From positions 1 to 33,049 of the forward strand of contig NZ_LR213817.1 of NCBI RefSeq assembly GCF_900659865.1: a DNA stretch of 33,049 nucleotides. The letters are read 5' to 3'. Positions within the stretch are counted from its first letter, which is position 1. Every line of letters begins with the position of its first letter. Position numbers and translations under genes: made by a program. The notes beneath the pieces were generated by a model. That model had not been told where the DNA came from, did no database searches, and saw nothing but the letters and a program-made list of their open reading frames with translations. Below are positions 317 to 7,886 of this stretch, in pieces. The DNA comes from Hyella patelloides LEGE 07179. Its GTDB lineage: Bacteria > Cyanobacteriota > Cyanobacteriia > Cyanobacteriales > Xenococcaceae.

Positions 317-778
317 CTAAGCCAAAGTTTTAAACTCAAACACATCATGAGTACCGCCACGCAGTACTGATTCTGTATGAAAACCTCGGTAACGTTGACC
401 GTAAATATTTTCCAATGCACCCCAGACAGCACCAAGGGTATAAGTACACTTACGGGGTGAACCTTCCTCTTCTCCAGAGGAGCAAACAGTTTCTTTTGTA
501 TAAACTTTAAGCAAATCGTCAGTTCGCTCTACTTTATCTACCATACAGAGTCTAGTACCATTTGTACCCAAAGCCCGATCTAATTTAGAAGCAATATCTT
601 CTACAGAAATCTTAGCACCAGATAAACCCAAACTATTAGTTAAATTTTTGCCTCTAGTACGACCTGCTGCAATCAGAGCAATAGCAGTTGCTTTTTCTCC
701 TAAAGCATCCTCCATTCCTGTAATGACCCCTTTGAAACAAACAATACTAACAAAATCGCCCAAATTTTCTCTTTTCAT
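317..778 (-). CDS. V4R-like small protein, last gene of a GTPase/Roadblock cluster
   Basis: A 153-residue soluble protein with no signal peptide or membrane segment. Residues about 111-149 contain a Cys, then LGAVWGALE, YG-Q-RY, TESVLRGG and a final FEF. This resembles the C-terminal pattern of V4R (4-vinyl reductase-like, small-ligand-binding) domains, although the second cysteine group of classical V4R proteins is absent. That assignment is an inference; the protein could be a separate cyanobacterial family. It follows a Roadblock protein, a GTPase and a DUF4388 protein on the same strand, which suggests a shared signalling role. The 153 bp spacer upstream holds a GC-rich dispersed repeat, so cotranscription is uncertain. 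The ATG at 778 gives the longest frame. Confidence 0.6.
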   Translation of the reverse strand: MKRENLGDFVSIVCFKGVITGMEDALGEKATAIALIAAGRTRGKNLTNSLGLSGAKISVEDIASKLDRALGTNGTRLCMVDKVERTDDLLKVYTKETVCSSGEEEGSPRKCTYTLGAVWGALENIYGQRYRGFHTESVLRGGTHDVFEFKTLA

Positions 779-811
779 AATTCTAAATCCTATAAATTAC
801 TATTGACGAAC

Positions 812-905
812 GAACCTGCTGTCCTAAAGGATACACCTTCGGATAAGGTTTCCTCGTGCTGTCGGAACGCCCCTTTAGGACTAGCTTCGCGTCGCACGAG
901 TTGTG
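812..905. repeat. GC-rich dispersed repeat (R1) between two cluster genes
   Basis: This stretch stands out from its AT-rich surroundings. It carries cctaaagg at about 823-830 opposite cctttagg at about 872-879, and tcgtgc near 853 opposite gcacga near 894, so it can fold. Words such as tttaggact and aaggtttcctcgtgc resemble blocks in the copies near 4800, 8100, 12600 and 13230. No reading frame is supported here. Confidence 0.55.
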
Positions 906-931
906 ACATTTCAAATAAAAATTCTGAAAAA

Positions 932-1300
932 CTATGCTACCATCTTGGCTAATTTGGCAGTGATACGCTTAATTTCTAAGAATAATAATCCTTGTTTTGC
1001 TTGCTTATCTGCTAACACCAATAAGACAATATCTTCACCACAGCCCACCATAATGCTATAGCCTTTATCCCCTTCAACAAAGATACGTTCAATAACGCCT
1101 CTTGATAGTTCCTTCCCGATTCTTTCTCCTAAAGAAAGCATTGCAGCAGACATCGCAGCAGTTCTTTCTTCATCCATACTTGCAGGAAGAATCGAACTAA
1201 GGGGTAGACCGTCAGAACTAACTAAAGCTGCTCCTTGAATATTCGGAGTTCCGCTTACGAATTGCTGTAATACATCATTTAAAGTTAAAGTTTGAATCAT
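932..1300 (-). CDS. Roadblock/LC7 domain protein (MglB-like)
   Basis: A 122-residue protein that is essentially one Roadblock/LC7 domain. It shows QGAALVSSDGLPLS near residues 22-35, the helical AAMSAAMLSLGERI block near 48-61, VEGDKGYSIMV near 75-85, and a closing LLFLEIKR helix. Roadblock proteins bind small GTPases, and MglB acts as GTPase-activating protein and scaffold for MglA. The next gene upstream on the same strand (start at 1996) encodes such a GTPase, so the partner is probably local. The spacer of about 160 bp is AT-rich. The family call is firm; the cellular process (polarity, motility or another switch) is inferred from context only. Confidence 0.93.
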   Translation of the reverse strand: MIQTLTLNDVLQQFVSGTPNIQGAALVSSDGLPLSSILPASMDEERTAAMSAAMLSLGERIGKELSRGVIERIFVEGDKGYSIMVGCGEDIVLLVLADKQAKQGLLFLEIKRITAKLAKMVA

Positions 1301-1459
1301 TATATATCTTCCTTTTTAGTGTTGATTAGAGTTCAAATAGTTTGTTGATTTTTTTAACTCTTGCTATTACAATAATTCCCAATTTAAAATCGAAAATTAC
1401 TATTGATTAGAATTCAAATAATAAAAATCTGCTTTTCTAGAAATAATACTGAAAAAAAG

Positions 1460-1996
1460 CTAAACATTAGCCATCATTAACTGCTCTAAAAGACAAATCA
1501 AACTATTAGCAACAGAACTAGAATCACTGGCATTGACTGTAATAATAGGTGGTCTACGACGGCGATTTTTCAGTCCTAAAGCTAATGCCACATCATCAGC
1601 TTCCCAAGCACCCTCACAATCAGTATGAGTCAGACCAATAATCATTGGTAAATTGACTTTACTCTGCATAAAATTAAAAATGCGACGACCATTATAAAAA
1701 TCTTGAGGACGATGGGCATCAATTAATACGATGTAAGCATGAGCTTTCTCGATAATAATCTCCCACATAAAATCGAAACGATTTTGCCCTGGTGTTCCGT
1801 ATAAGTAAAGAACTTGCTCTGCATTGAGAGTTAAACGACCAAAATCAAGAGCTACAGTAGTATTGTGTTTTAGCTGATTAACTTCATCGCTAGCTTTTTT
1901 TTCTGTACTAACTACCTCAATTTCGCTAATTGTTTTGATAAAACTTGTTTTTCCAGCACCAACATTACCCGTAATTGCAATATTAAAAGCTTCCAT
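1460..1996 (-). CDS. Small Arf/MglA-like GTPase
   Basis: A 178-residue Ras-like GTPase of the bacterial MglA/COG2229 type. The P-loop GNVGAGKT is at residues 10-17, a switch-I threonine pair at 46-47, and YGTPGQ at 66-71 in place of the canonical D-x-x-G. THTD at 123-126 takes the place of N/TKxD, and NAS at 155-157 serves as the G5 region. Loss of the switch-II Asp is typical of MglA relatives; the His for Lys in G4 is less usual. The gene overlaps the upstream DUF4388 gene by one base in a TAATG arrangement, which indicates translational coupling. A Roadblock partner follows. It probably acts as a nucleotide-dependent switch; the downstream target is not visible. Confidence 0.9.
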   Translation of the reverse strand: MEAFNIAITGNVGAGKTSFIKTISEIEVVSTEKKASDEVNQLKHNTTVALDFGRLTLNAEQVLYLYGTPGQNRFDFMWEIIIEKAHAYIVLIDAHRPQDFYNGRRIFNFMQSKVNLPMIIGLTHTDCEGAWEADDVALALGLKNRRRRPPIITVNASDSSSVANSLICLLEQLMMANV

Positions 1997-2901
1997 TAAA
2001 AATTATTCCTTAAAAAATCGACTAAGTTTCCTAACAAAGAATTACTAACTTTTCCTTGGGATTTGGTTTTCACCATACTATTCGTAGATGATAAAGCAAG
2101 TTTTCGTTCTAATGATGGTGCTGCGTAAGTTTGTGGCTCTTCTCTTGAAACTGGTACTTCTTCTAATAAACCAATTAAAATTAATCTGAGTGCTGTTGTT
2201 TGTAAATCTTGAATCTCAAACAGAGTTTTTTGGGCTATTTTTTTCAGGGACATTTTACCATTTGCATCATCCCAAAGACAAGCTTCTATGGGCAATAACT
2301 TACAATTAAGATTGTCTTCTAACTTAATAAGTCCAGAGTTAGGCTCAGGCATTTGCTCTGTTAAACGATTATCTAACTTGGATAACGAACGCATTCCCTG
2401 TAAAGAAATAGTTAAAGTGTCGCATTTTTTTCCAGTCATTTCCATCAAAGGAAAACTTTCTTTTGGTTCAGAAACTTGATTATTACTATCTGCATCATCA
2501 AAGAAAAACCAACCATCATCAAGCTCAAATAAGGAATAAACTTCTTTTAATTGGTTTTCCAACAATTGATTAACTCGCTCGACACTTAAAAGTGATTGTT
2601 GAAGACAATATTCACCTAAAGGAATAGATATCTCTCGCTCTAAACTATAAAGTTTAACTATATTTTTAGAGGAAATAATATTTTCTTTTTTAATTAAACT
2701 AAGTAAATTATTATATTTAAACGGGTTAGATAGGGCGACAAAATTGCCATTTTTAAACCATAAATCATTAGTACCTTGATTTTGTAAGGCTTTTCCCTTT
2801 AAGCTTGAGGTGATTGATAATCGACCAGACTTAGAGCCGTTGTCAATAATTTGTAATATTTCTGGTAAAGAAAAATCCTGTAATGAGCCACTAATTCCCA
2901 T
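1996..2901 (-). CDS. DUF4388 (PatA N-terminal-like) protein
   Basis: A 301-residue protein. Residues about 4-80 match the DUF4388/PatA N-terminal pattern: GSLQDFSLPEILQII, then KSGRLSI, then a WFKNGNFVA strand. In cyanobacteria and delta-proteobacteria this domain often occurs with receiver domains and GTPases in motility and development regulators. The rest is acidic, low in recognisable motifs, and ends in a Ser/Lys-rich tail without a membrane anchor. It is the first gene of the minus-strand cluster, and its stop codon overlaps the start of the GTPase gene. It may be the upstream sensor or adaptor of the switch; that is inference. Confidence 0.8.
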   Translation of the reverse strand: MGISGSLQDFSLPEILQIIDNGSKSGRLSITSSLKGKALQNQGTNDLWFKNGNFVALSNPFKYNNLLSLIKKENIISSKNIVKLYSLEREISIPLGEYCLQQSLLSVERVNQLLENQLKEVYSLFELDDGWFFFDDADSNNQVSEPKESFPLMEMTGKKCDTLTISLQGMRSLSKLDNRLTEQMPEPNSGLIKLEDNLNCKLLPIEACLWDDANGKMSLKKIAQKTLFEIQDLQTTALRLILIGLLEEVPVSREEPQTYAAPSLERKLALSSTNSMVKTKSQGKVSNSLLGNLVDFLRNNF

Positions 2902-3106: not shown

Positions 3107-3832
3107 ATGAACAATGTTAACTTAGGTACTCTTTATGGCGTTAGTGTGGGAACTGGCGATCCTGAATTAATCACTGTCAAAGGATTACGCCTACTGCAAA
3201 AAACAAAGATTATTGCTTTTCCTGCTGGGATCAACAACCAACTAGGTATTGCTCAACAAATTATTACCCAGTGGCTACAATCAACGCAAATTACTGTACC
3301 TCTTGACTTTCCCTATGTCAGAAATAAGGCGATCTTACAAGCAGCATGGCACAAATCAGCTAATATTGTTTGGCAATATCTCCAAAAAGGAGAAGATGTT
3401 GCTTTTGCTTGTGAAGGAGATATCAGTTTTTATAGTACTTTTACTCATTTAGCGACTACTCTCAAGCAACTAGAACCCACAGTAAAAATAGCTACTATAC
3501 CTGGAGTTTGTTCTCTTGTTGCAGCAGTCTCTGATTTGGGTATTCCTCTAACTATTAATCATCAAAGACTCACCGTGTTACCCGCTCTTTACACGGTCAA
3601 AGAGTTAGAAACTGCTTTAGACACCGCAGAGGTAGTAGTGCTTTTGAAGGTAAGCTCTGTGTATCGGCAAGTGTGGCATATTTTACAGCAACGCCAGTTA
3701 TTAGAATATAGTTTTGTAGTAGAAAAAGCCACTTTGAGCGATCGCAAAATATATACTAATCTGATTAATCATCCTGATTTACAACTGCCCTATTTTTCGT
3801 TACTTGTTGTGAAGTGCGACCAAAAACAGTAA
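3107..3832 (+). CDS. cobI: Precorrin-2 C20-methyltransferase
   Basis: A 241-residue SAM-dependent methyltransferase of corrin-ring synthesis (CobI/CbiL). It adds the C20 methyl to precorrin-2 or its cobalt form. Diagnostic features are YGVSVGTGDPELITVKG at residues 10-26, the GEDVAFACEGDISFYST block at 95-111 and IPGVCSLVAA at 131-140. The length is normal for the family. The start is an ATG in an AT-rich leader with no obvious Shine-Dalgarno sequence. The gene is divergent from the DUF4388 gene with 205 bp between them; I see no cobalamin riboswitch there. A second corrin methyltransferase (cbiET) lies 2.8 kb away on the other strand. Confidence 0.93.
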   Translation: MNNVNLGTLYGVSVGTGDPELITVKGLRLLQKTKIIAFPAGINNQLGIAQQIITQWLQSTQITVPLDFPYVRNKAILQAAWHKSANIVWQYLQKGEDVAFACEGDISFYSTFTHLATTLKQLEPTVKIATIPGVCSLVAAVSDLGIPLTINHQRLTVLPALYTVKELETALDTAEVVVLLKVSSVYRQVWHILQQRQLLEYSFVVEKATLSDRKIYTNLINHPDLQLPYFSLLVVKCDQKQ

Positions 3833-5030: not shown

Positions 5031-6431
5031 ATGAATAAAGAATACTATGAACAAGCAAAAGCGAATATTCTAATTGTAGATGATTCACCAGAGAACTTAC
5101 GACTTTTATCATCACTGTTGGTAAAGCAAGGTCATCGAGTGAACTGTGTCGCTGATGGAGAAATGGCTTTGCACGCCATTAGAGGAAAGCTTCCAGACCT
5201 CATTATACTTGATGTCTTGATACCTATTATTGATGGGTATAAAGTGTGTCAAATTCTCAAGGCTAATGAAAAAACCCGTCACATTCCAGTTATATTTTTT
5301 AGCTCTTTAGATTCAGAGAGTGACAAAGTTCAAGCTTTTCAATTAGGCGCAGTTGATTACGTCACAAAACCTTTCTTTGTAGAGGAAGCGATCGTTCGTA
5401 TTAATGCTCAACTGGATGTTGGTCAAAGGGAAAAACTATGGCAAAAAAAGCTTCAAGAGCAAATTAGAGAACGCAAAAGTGTTGAACAAGAGCTTAATCA
5501 ATCCCGCGCGCTTTTAGCTGGAGTTTTAAATAGCTCTTTGGATGGAGTCGCAGCTTTTGAAGCTGTGCGAGATCGCTGGGGAAAAATAGTTGATTTTCGC
5601 TGGTTAATTGCGAACCCTGTAGCGACAATGACTGTGGGAGAAACAACAGAAAGCCTTGAGGGTAAATTACTTTTTGAACAGCTAGATCTTACAGGACATC
5701 TCTTTGAAGGATTATTCGATTTATTTGTACAAGTAGTCGAAAATTGCATTGTTATTAGTAAGGAACATTACTATAGTTTGGATCAGGCTTGGTTTCATAT
5801 TGTGGCGGTTAAACTTGGTGATGGTTTTGCGATGACTTTTCGTGATATCAGCGAACATAAGCAAATGGAAATCACTCTTAAAGAAGTTAATGAAGAACTA
5901 CAACGTCAAGCCAATATAGATAGTTTGACCCAGATAGCAAATCGCCGTCGTTTTGATGAATACCTCGCTCAAGAATGGTCAAGATGTACCAGGGAACAAG
6001 AACATCTTTCTTTGATTTTGTGTGATGTGGATTATTTTAAACTTTACAACGATGCTTATGGACATCAAGCTGGCGATCGCTGTTTGTATGAAGTTGCTCA
6101 AGCAATGAGTCTCATTGTTAAGCGTCCTGCTGATGTGGTATTTCGCTACGGAGGAGAAGAGTTTGCAGTTATCTTACCTTTTACAAAAGGAGAAGGAGCA
6201 TTACAAGTAGCTCAAGAAATTAGAGAAGAAGTCTTAGAACTACAAATTCCTCACGATCTTTCTCAAGTTAACGATCATATTACTCTTAGTTTAGGAGTTT
6301 CTAGTATTGTTCCCAATCTCAGCTCAAATTTTGAGTCTTTAATTGAAACTGCGGATCGTGCTTTATATGAAGCAAAAGCTCTTGGTAGAGATCGGGTGAT
6401 TTATAAAGCATTAGAACGACCTTTAATTTAG
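5031..6431 (+). CDS. Response regulator diguanylate cyclase (receiver-PAS-like-GGDEF)
   Basis: A 466-residue cytoplasmic regulator that should synthesise cyclic di-GMP when phosphorylated. The receiver domain spans about residues 11-130, with the acidic pair D17-D18, phosphoacceptor D61, S91 and K113. A coiled linker at 135-160 leads to a PAS-like segment (about 160-275, ending in MTFRDISEHK). The GGDEF domain spans about 292-462. The active site is GGEEF at 374-378, so it should be catalytic. An inhibitory site, RPAD at 365-368, lies exactly five residues ahead, as in feedback-controlled enzymes. There is no EAL domain. No partner histidine kinase is in the window. The gene starts at an ATG 70 bases past the repeat block. 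Confidence 0.93.
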   Translation: MNKEYYEQAKANILIVDDSPENLRLLSSLLVKQGHRVNCVADGEMALHAIRGKLPDLIILDVLIPIIDGYKVCQILKANEKTRHIPVIFFSSLDSESDKVQAFQLGAVDYVTKPFFVEEAIVRINAQLDVGQREKLWQKKLQEQIRERKSVEQELNQSRALLAGVLNSSLDGVAAFEAVRDRWGKIVDFRWLIANPVATMTVGETTESLEGKLLFEQLDLTGHLFEGLFDLFVQVVENCIVISKEHYYSLDQAWFHIVAVKLGDGFAMTFRDISEHKQMEITLKEVNEELQRQANIDSLTQIANRRRFDEYLAQEWSRCTREQEHLSLILCDVDYFKLYNDAYGHQAGDRCLYEVAQAMSLIVKRPADVVFRYGGEEFAVILPFTKGEGALQVAQEIREEVLELQIPHDLSQVNDHITLSLGVSSIVPNLSSNFESLIETADRALYEAKALGRDRVIYKALERPLI

Positions 6432-6632: not shown

Positions 6633-7886
6633 TCAGTTCACAAGCTTGATAATAGTTATAGGATTGAGAGGAGAAAAGCGGGTTAAATTAGCAATGGGAA
6701 TAGATCGCGAGATTTGTACTTGTAATAAGTGATAATGCCAATTATTTTGTTTTGCCCATTGTAAGACTTCTGCAAAATGTTCAATGGTAGCAAGAGTAAT
6801 AACAATAATTCCTTGGGGTGCTATTTTGCTTTGACAGGTATTTAAAATAGAGATCAGGTTTCCACCACTACCTCCAATAAATATCCGATCTGGTGTGGGT
6901 AATTCGGCTAAAGATTCTGGGGCTTTGGCAGAGATCGGTTGAATATTTTTTACTGCAAAACGTTGGCAATTTTGTTTAATTAAAGAAATACCCATTGCAG
7001 TTTTTTCAATGGCATAAATTTTAGCAGTAGGGCATAAACGAGCAATTTCAATGGATACTGAACCCGTACCCGCGCCTAGATCCCAGACTGTTTGCTGAGA
7101 TTGTAATGCTAATTCGGCAAGAATAACAGAGCGTACTTCTTTTTTGGTAATTAAATTAGGGCGATCGCTAAAGCTTAAAAATGCAGAATCGGAGATCCCA
7201 AACAGAGGTAAATTAGCTAAGTTTAAGTTATTTTGTGTTAAGTTTTCTCTGATTAAAACTAATACGTTTAAAGCAGCAAACCTATCTTGTGGCAACTTAG
7301 CTAAAGCTGTAATTTCTTGAGGTGAAAAAGAAGTAATTTCCCCATTTTCTAAAGTTAGATTTTCACAAATATGAAAAGAATAAGCTACAGTAAGTTCTAA
7401 AGAATCATATAATTTTGCGATCGCAATAGGATTATTGAAACTATCTGTCAGAACAGCAATTTTATTTGTTCCCTGTTTTAAGTGTTTAATCAATTCATCA
7501 CAATCTCGACCGTGAACACTAATTAAAGCTGAATCTTGCCAAGGAATTTTAAGTTTACTAAATGCTAGTTGAATCGAACTTAAATGAGGATAAAACTGTA
7601 ATTTTTTTAATGGTATTTTCGATAATAATAAACGCCCTAAACCAAAAAAAAGCGGATCGCCACTAGCAAGAATTACTATCTTGTCTGTAGTAGCTTTTTC
7701 AATTAATAGCTCAATGTCCTGCTGTAAATTATTTAGAGGGATTTTAACTGCTGGATGCTTTGAAAAATAACTAAGATGACGCTTTGCGCCACTTAAAATA
7801 GTTGCTTGCTCAATAATTCGCGTTGCCGTATCTGTCAGTTCCGATTTACCATCTAAATCAATACCTACTACATCAATTTGGTTCAT
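6633..7886 (-). CDS. cbiET: Bifunctional precorrin-6Y C5,15-methyltransferase (decarboxylating)
   Basis: A 417-residue fusion of CbiE and CbiT (CobL type), which methylates C5 and C15 and decarboxylates the C12 acetate during corrin synthesis. The CbiE half has VVGID at residues 6-10 and ASGDPLFFG at 74-82. The CbiT half has the SAM-binding DLGAGTGSVSIE at 269-280 and later IFIGGSGGN. The length is normal. It stands alone on the minus strand; with cobI at 3107 it gives the window two steps of the cobalamin pathway that are not in an operon. The upstream region (7887-8000) is AT-rich, and no riboswitch was recognised. Confidence 0.93.
   Translation of the reverse strand: MNQIDVVGIDLDGKSELTDTATRIIEQATILSGAKRHLSYFSKHPAVKIPLNNLQQDIELLIEKATTDKIVILASGDPLFFGLGRLLLSKIPLKKLQFYPHLSSIQLAFSKLKIPWQDSALISVHGRDCDELIKHLKQGTNKIAVLTDSFNNPIAIAKLYDSLELTVAYSFHICENLTLENGEITSFSPQEITALAKLPQDRFAALNVLVLIRENLTQNNLNLANLPLFGISDSAFLSFSDRPNLITKKEVRSVILAELALQSQQTVWDLGAGTGSVSIEIARLCPTAKIYAIEKTAMGISLIKQNCQRFAVKNIQPISAKAPESLAELPTPDRIFIGGSGGNLISILNTCQSKIAPQGIIVITLATIEHFAEVLQWAKQNNWHYHLLQVQISRSIPIANLTRFSPLNPITIIKLVN

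Follow-up and report, generated by a model that had tools for sequence, protein, structure and literature searches.

A DUF4388, GTPase, Roadblock and V4R gene cluster of Hyella patelloides as a candidate sensor-gated small-GTPase switch with exchangeable inputs

The cyanobacterium Hyella patelloides LEGE 07179 carries, at the start of contig NZ_LR213817.1, a cluster of four genes whose predicted products are a DUF4388 (PATAN) protein, a small GTPase of the MglA type, a Roadblock/LC7 protein and a protein of the V4R/TRAPPC3 fold (Table 1). We analysed this cluster in a stretch of 33,049 nucleotides (positions 1 to 33,049 of the contig, here called the window). The evidence presented below suggests a small-GTPase switch whose putative sensory input would be exchanged among relatives. 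An original prediction had described the four genes as a compact cluster on one strand and had proposed a GTPase switch in which the V4R-like protein could be a ligand sensor. All four open reading frames (ORFs) were confirmed on the minus strand between 317 and 2901, where they are read in the order DUF4388, GTPase, Roadblock and V4R-like, and the first two do overlap by one base within TAATG. The word compact suits only this first pair, as the remaining two gaps, calculated from the ORF coordinates, measure 159 and 153 bases and most of the second is filled by a dispersed repeat. Inverted repeats were looked for in both cluster spacers and none was found. Because the window begins where the contig begins, the region downstream of the V4R gene lies outside the available sequence.

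Table 1. Features of the four-gene cluster in the window.
Feature	Position	Strand	Basis or remark
DUF4388/PATAN protein, 301 amino acids	1996..2901	-	Pfam DUF4388 E 1.7e-18; AlphaFold predicted local distance difference test (pLDDT) 86.0, predicted template modelling score (pTM) 0.77
Small GTPase, 178 amino acids, MglA type, GTPGQ in G3, THTD in the G4 place	1460..1996	-	Pfam ATP_bind_1/Ras; column conservation in 144 relatives
Roadblock/LC7 protein, 122 amino acids, candidate GTPase-activating protein (GAP) or guanine nucleotide exchange factor (GEF) for the GTPase	932..1300	-	Robl_LC7 E 1.7e-17; Asp-Gly in 137/137
V4R/TRAPPC3-fold protein, 153 amino acids, candidate ligand sensor	317..778	-	No Pfam match; AlphaFold pLDDT 87.3; Z 16.2 to MopR, 14.0 to TRAPPC3
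TAATG, DUF4388 stop and GTPase start, common base 1996	1994..1998	-	
Dispersed repeat in the Roadblock/V4R spacer, outside the proposed function	805..905		26 matches in own genome, including the window copy

The protein encoded by the last gene of the cluster proved impossible to name from its sequence alone, since neither Pfam (at an E value of 0.1) nor NCBIfam returned a match and a PDB profile search gave a match at chance level only (E 0.27). Even among its relatives, the Pfam V4R model PF02830 matches 7 of 51 members weakly (E up to 0.5, best 0.047), and the window protein is not one of them. The label V4R-like, left unconfirmed by the protein's own sequence because of the missing Pfam match, was confirmed by the fold instead. 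Fifty-one aligned rows (49 distinct), taken from cyanobacterial loci, served as input for an AlphaFold model (pLDDT 87.3, pTM 0.84), for which Foldseek ranked Bet3, MopR, TRAPP subunits and PoxR first, with the best E value (1e-6) for mouse Bet3. Superposition with VIA-align gave a Z score of 16.2 for MopR (root mean square deviation 2.6, 138 residues), 14.0 for the Thorarchaeal TRAPPC3 (2.8, 140 residues) and 13.5 for MJ1460 (3.5, 128 residues). The haem protein fold H-NOX scored lower (Z 8.5, 3.4, 129 residues) and was rejected as an identity for this protein, which also has no invariant histidine; His144 is present in 39 of the 51 rows, and column 134 is divided between Gln (27 rows) and His (24). 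On the predicted structure, in which helices lie on a four-stranded antiparallel sheet, membership of the V4R/TRAPPC3 superfamily is confirmed by fold, and with it the last of the domain names that had been assigned to the four products, all of which hold.

Individual columns of the V4R alignment are consistent with this placement. The glycine pairs G39/G43 and G116/G120 are invariant in 51 of 51 rows; Bet3 and V4R proteins are described as carrying glycine pairs three residues apart in helices 2 and 5 (PMC2253512), and we read the pairs of the model as lying in the same helices. Residues C14, E96 and C99 are also invariant. The window protein possesses Cys78, Glu96, Cys99 and Cys111, which occur together in only 20 of the 51 rows and are reminiscent of the zinc site of DmpR (Cys-Glu-Cys-Cys), although the residue spacing is not the same as that of the DmpR ligands Cys151, Glu172, Cys177 and Cys185 (PMC7264223). 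When a profile of the V4R protein was searched against nine non-cyanobacterial genomes that carry a relative of the GTPase, nothing was found in eight and a weak match (E 5.4e-4) in the ninth; the same search found the protein in two of three cyanobacterial genomes.

The GTPase and its Roadblock neighbour are more readily recognized. Pfam assigns the former to the P-loop type (ATP_bind_1 E 2.1e-15, Ras E 1.1e-4), and in PDB profile searches it resembles Arl/Arf chains best and MglA (3t12) more weakly, with an E value of 1.2e-4. Members of the MglA family are P-loop GTPases of approximately 160-240 amino acids encoded near a Roadblock gene, and both the length of this protein and the presence of a Roadblock gene in 125 of 141 GTPase clusters agree with that description. 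Among 144 aligned GTPases the G3 motif GTPGQ is nearly constant (G67 in 144, T68 in 139, P69 in 144, G70 in 143 and Q71 in 140), as are T46 and T47 (140 each), the glycines and lysine of G1 and the HxD in the place of G4. By our reading of the motif, T46/T47 would correspond to the position of the G2 arginine. The Roadblock protein, whose nearest PDB profile matches are 7f8m (E 1.7e-32), 9jue and then CvnB5 (3leq, E 6.3e-15), with MglB weaker (E 0.0045), carries an Asp-Gly pair, D30/G31, that is invariant in 137 of 137 relatives. GTPGQ, threonine in place of the G2 arginine and Asp-Gly in the Roadblock partner are given as marks of MglA Groups 2-5 in the relevant sections of Wuichet and Sogaard-Andersen (PMC4316618), and all three are found here, in place of the TVPGQ motif and intrinsic arginine finger of Group 1. 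Group 5 is among the MglA groups that the same source reports from Cyanobacteria. Judged by these family resemblances, the assignment of the GTPase as the switch and of the Roadblock protein as its probable regulator is well grounded.

The association of the V4R gene with the GTPase gene is conserved well beyond Hyella. Among 27 genomes of the family, the GTPase occurs in 11 and the V4R protein in 8; in seven of these eight a V4R gene is intact and lies on the strand of the GTPase gene, no more than 1.5 kb from it. In the eighth there are V4R remnants with stop codons (loci L046 and L047) and no GTPase, as if the pair had been lost together. Across 291 genomes of the class, V4R is found in 73 and the GTPase in 108. 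Fifty-five of 88 full-length V4R matches (two fragments with stop codons from one genome were excluded) lie no more than 2.3 kb from a GTPase gene, and the strand is the same in 55 of 55; the expectation by chance, from rough arithmetic that assumes genomes of about 5.5 Mb with some 1.3 GTPase copies each, is about 0.1 of 88. The GTPase is present in 67 of the 73 V4R genomes versus 105 of 291 overall, counted on a trimmed list that drops short or weak rows and keeps 105 of the 108 genomes. As the genomes surveyed are related, these adjacency counts are not independent events. Gene order and strand are thus kept across the class, which bears out the conserved neighbourhood on which the idea of a four-gene unit depended.

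Neighbours of the GTPase in relatives revealed that V4R is only one of several associated proteins. Clustering of the neighbouring genes at 70 loci produced a same-strand protein of approximately 184 amino acids in 18 loci and one of approximately 140 amino acids in 6. The larger is a protoglobin (PF11563 in 3 of 3 scanned, E 4.5e-17 to 3.6e-20) and the smaller matches Hemerythrin (PF01814) in 2 of 2 scanned. These first 70 loci overlap in places, and the totals that follow come from a later globin survey and from a set of 141 GTPase clusters, drawn from 162 loci that cover the GTPase matches used, together with 20 V4R loci without a near GTPase and 2 globin loci. The underlying alignments contain duplicated genes (A1, 51 rows and 49 distinct; A2, 45 and 43; A3, 39 and 38; A4, 44 and 42, with two tandem copies identical). 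The globin is found in 68 of the 291 genomes, with 78 matches, and in 2 of the 27 genomes of the family. A GTPase gene lies within 3.5 kb of 66 of the 78 matches and shares the strand of all but one of them (65 of 66). Counted by genome, the GTPase accompanies the globin in 66 of 68 (Fisher p 6e-35, uncorrected for kinship; this comparison took one row more than the trimmed GTPase list). Both marks of a protoglobin, the PF11563 match and a predicted proximal histidine, are present: His101 and a helix-B tyrosine, which we take to be haem residues with the histidine as proximal ligand, are each conserved in 65 of 65 sequences.

The arrangement of the 141 clusters suggests a constant core with variable additions. 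The core consists of the Roadblock gene (125 clusters) and the DUF4388 gene (120) beside the GTPase, with both in 111, and among the accessories the globin is found in 64, V4R in 59 and the hemerythrin-like protein in 28, with at least one of the three in 114. The original prediction of a four-gene set therefore stands as regards a conserved cluster, but V4R, present in 59 of 141, is an accessory to the Roadblock-GTPase-DUF4388 core and not a fixed part of it. With O for globin, R for Roadblock, G for GTPase, P for DUF4388, H for hemerythrin-like and V for V4R, the commonest orders are O-R-G-P-H (16), O-R-G-P (16), V-R-G-P (14), P-G-R-V, which is that of the window (11), and O-V-R-G-P (11). 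Gaps are short (in the R-G-P order, the most frequent gene pairs have medians of 34-98 bases), and V4R is directly beside Roadblock in 60 of the 63 clusters that contain both. V4R and the hemerythrin-like protein occur together in none of the 141 clusters, which kinship may explain. On a quick tree of the GTPase (141 rows) the labels change 26 times for V4R, 23 times for globin and 12 times for the hemerythrin-like protein; the first two figures are as expected of exchangeable inputs, and the tree agrees with, without proving, a history in which accessories came and went around a constant core. At three loci (L140, L142 and L179) V4R-Roadblock pairs are duplicated in tandem before one GTPase gene, and in each of the first two the Roadblock copies encode an identical protein.

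Hyella itself holds a second GTPase-Roadblock-DUF4388 set on another contig (L048, 8621-10984), with 64% identity to the GTPase of the window and 66% to its Roadblock protein. A globin gene lies beside this second set on the opposite strand, separated from it by a stretch of N, and the genome thus seems to possess one set with V4R and another with a globin nearby. A third Roadblock gene of this genome (L049, 6283-6648) shows 33% identity, and the 14 kb examined at its locus contain no gene for a GTPase, V4R or DUF4388 protein.

The DUF4388 protein is the remaining member of the core. Its AlphaFold model comprises a PATAN domain with a helical insertion, followed by a winged-helix-like domain at approximately residues 175-253 that falls in the confident part of the model. 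The closest matches of this second domain are chains of the GATOR1/SEA complex (Z ~10 over 73-79 residues), which we take to be NPRL2/3; none of the DNA-binding regulators listed reaches a Z of 5. Binding of cyclic diguanylate by the helical insertion (residues 60-120) was considered and rejected, since the likeness to the N-terminal domain of MshE is weak (profile E 0.27, Foldseek E 2.9, Z 4.3). We infer that the DUF4388 protein is an output component, by analogy, because it is present in 120 of the 141 clusters and because of what is known of PATAN proteins. In Synechocystis, PATAN regulators are described as interacting with PilB1 and PilC (excerpted from PMC12288463), and it is for this reason that a pilus analogy is drawn here. 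The name DUF4388, among the matches listed in open-licence PMC full text, occurs in one paper, as a table annotation.

Taken together, these observations favour a sensor-gated small-GTPase switch with exchangeable inputs, of which the window would hold the V4R version, and we place the probability of this reading at roughly 0.55. The GTPase would cycle between its GDP and GTP forms, and a Roadblock dimer would bind it and set its nucleotide state, as in MglA/MglB. The V4R protein, probably a dimer, would bind a small hydrophobic ligand or a metal and so alter the activity of the Roadblock protein or the GTPase, a step proposed because of its fold and its usual adjacency to Roadblock. In relatives the globin would supply a gas signal in the place of V4R; that both may be inputs is inferred from linkage, fold and exchangeability. 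The DUF4388 protein would act as the effector that reads the state of the GTPase, possibly at the motor of type IV pili, to judge from PATAN response regulators. The proposal that the V4R protein is a ligand sensor has accordingly gained support, of an indirect kind, because phenol sensors are the structures that its fold matches best and because a globin or hemerythrin-like protein holds the same accessory position in relatives.

Several observations weigh against this interpretation. Thirty-three of the 88 V4R matches have no GTPase match nearby; of the 22 examined among these, 5 have a Roadblock gene as neighbour and 17 are solitary, some on short contigs. None of the three accessories is found in 27 of the 141 clusters, and 27 clusters, which need not be the accessory-free ones, are close to an end of the sampled stretch and may be truncated. 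Twenty clusters contain both V4R and globin, which led us to reject the notion that they are strict alternatives. The GTPase tree is weakly supported, as its starred branches force just 5-8 changes per group, and on it V4R and globin showed no significant trend in a paired test (median p 0.625). The hemerythrin diiron centre is described as five histidines, one glutamate and one aspartate (PMC9388753, in part). The hemerythrin-like accessory conserves H32, H69, E73, H92, H130 and D135 in 29 of 29 sequences, but has N88 in 29 of 29 at the presumed place of the fifth histidine, in the HxxxH pair, and so departs from a hemerythrin; diiron O2 binding is doubtful because of this replacement. Among the 74 adjacent same-strand neighbours, no type IV pilus family is present in the 25 commonest of 81 Pfam families, and a pilus output was accordingly rejected as a deduction from gene neighbourhood and is retained as an analogy only.

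Other explanations must be weighed against an exchangeable-input switch. The V4R protein could have a structural role as a subunit, flanking the Roadblock dimer in the way that Bet3/TRAPPC3 flanks the longin dimer, so that the two would act jointly as a GEF and any bound lipid or metal would be structural, with no sensing. Its model indeed matches TRAPPC3 and Bet3 almost equally (Z 14.0 and 13.9, versus 16.2 for the sensors), both glycine pairs noted for Bet3 and V4R (PMC2253512, in part) are invariant, and adjacency to Roadblock is the rule in the clusters with both genes (60 of 63). The best fold matches are nevertheless ligand sensors, Roadblock is not longin, and V4R is missing from 82 of the 141 clusters and so is not an obligatory GEF subunit; we regard such a TRAPP-like exchange factor as unlikely. 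If the output rather than the input is reconsidered, the winged-helix-like domain of the DUF4388 protein might bind DNA, with V4R or globin as the input of a switch that controls transcription. The model is confident where it shows this domain, the V4R sensors MopR, PoxR and DmpR are themselves described as transcription regulators, and the cluster has a NarL-type response regulator beside it in relatives from another family (L130, 2670-3335; L132, 5010-5672), but the far better match to GATOR1/SEA chains (Z ~10) than to the DNA-binding regulators listed (below 5) makes a transcriptional output rather improbable.

The accessories may also have no part in the switch. The core would then be one unit, and the V4R, globin and hemerythrin genes would have jobs of their own, such as nitric oxide or oxygen handling, and be co-expressed for ecological reasons. 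Protoglobins may detoxify reactive nitrogen, according to part of PMC4020757, and 33 of 88 V4R and 12 of 78 globin matches do lie away from a GTPase. On the other hand, the GTPase is present in 66 of 68 globin genomes and 67 of 73 V4R genomes versus 105 of 291 overall, and strand agreement is 55 of 55 for V4R and 65 of 66 for globin; such a loose association is the least probable of the explanations we considered.

Little is known about what serves as input to bacterial Ras-like GTPases, and the cluster described here names a candidate input, regulator and output in one locus, while placing the single-domain protoglobins of cyanobacteria in a regulatory setting. If V4R does act with Roadblock on the GTPase, the cluster would be a bacterial case of the three TRAPP-Rab folds working together, with a bearing on the origin of the TRAPP-Rab system. 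A bolder version, which we offer tentatively and hold to be doubtful, is that the cluster is the bacterial equivalent of a TRAPP core, in which V4R on a Roadblock dimer would make GTPase control ligand-dependent, and that this core has repeatedly exchanged V4R for, or combined it with, a haem globin to yield ligand- or gas-gated Ras-like switches.

Other genes lie near the cluster. Corrin biosynthesis genes flank it in the window, encoding a precorrin-2 C20-methyltransferase (3107-3832) and a CbiE/CbiT fusion (6633-7886), and a CobB/CobQ-like amidotransferase domain is found in 5 of the 74 adjacent neighbours of relatives' clusters. By Pfam, a receiver-GGDEF protein that is likely to be a diguanylate cyclase is encoded at 5031-6431.

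Comparison with known systems shows which features of the cluster are shared and which are its own. As in MglA/MglB of Myxococcus and Thermus, a small GTPase gene lies beside a Roadblock gene, but the Hyella GTPase differs from those of Group 1 in having GTPGQ instead of TVPGQ, threonine for the G2 arginine and THxD in the G4 place, and here the accessories are V4R, globin and hemerythrin-like proteins. Some mglA genes of Groups 1 and 5 are reported to have PATAN genes nearby, and Group 5 neighbourhoods are described as varied (PMC4316618, in part). The actinobacterial conservons (Cvn) likewise combine a GTPase and a Roadblock protein, and the Roadblock profile matches CvnB5 (3leq); DUF4388 and sensor genes stand here in place of the conservon histidine kinase CvnA and CvnC, neither of which is found by Pfam among the four window genes, the contig ending downstream of V4R. 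The eukaryotic TRAPP core and the Asgard sets share with the cluster a small GTPase, a dimer protein of Roadblock/longin type and a TRAPPC3/V4R fold. In TRAPP a longin heterodimer with Bet3-type subunits has GEF activity, whereas Roadblock is found here in the place of longin. In the Asgard archaeon MK-D1, GTPase genes are generally not in operons with Roadblock, longin or TRAPPC3 genes, according to the part of PMC10933270 that concerns them, whereas in Hyella the three folds share one gene cluster. The V4R phenol sensors MopR, PoxR and DmpR have the same fold (Z 14.4-16.2), but the window protein stands alone, without their fused AAA+ and DNA-binding domains. HGbRL of Methylacidiphilum, a fusion of globin and Roadblock proposed as a sensor (PMC4476040, in part), involves another globin subgroup, whereas protoglobin and Roadblock are here encoded by separate genes. 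The main text of PMC4316618 does not contain the term V4R, and among the matches listed in open-licence PMC full text none joins V4R, protoglobin or hemerythrin to the cluster. Set against the cited parts of PMC4316618, the linkage of GTPase with Roadblock, and of PATAN with some of these GTPases, was already known, and the V4R, globin and hemerythrin-like accessories appear to be what this cluster adds.

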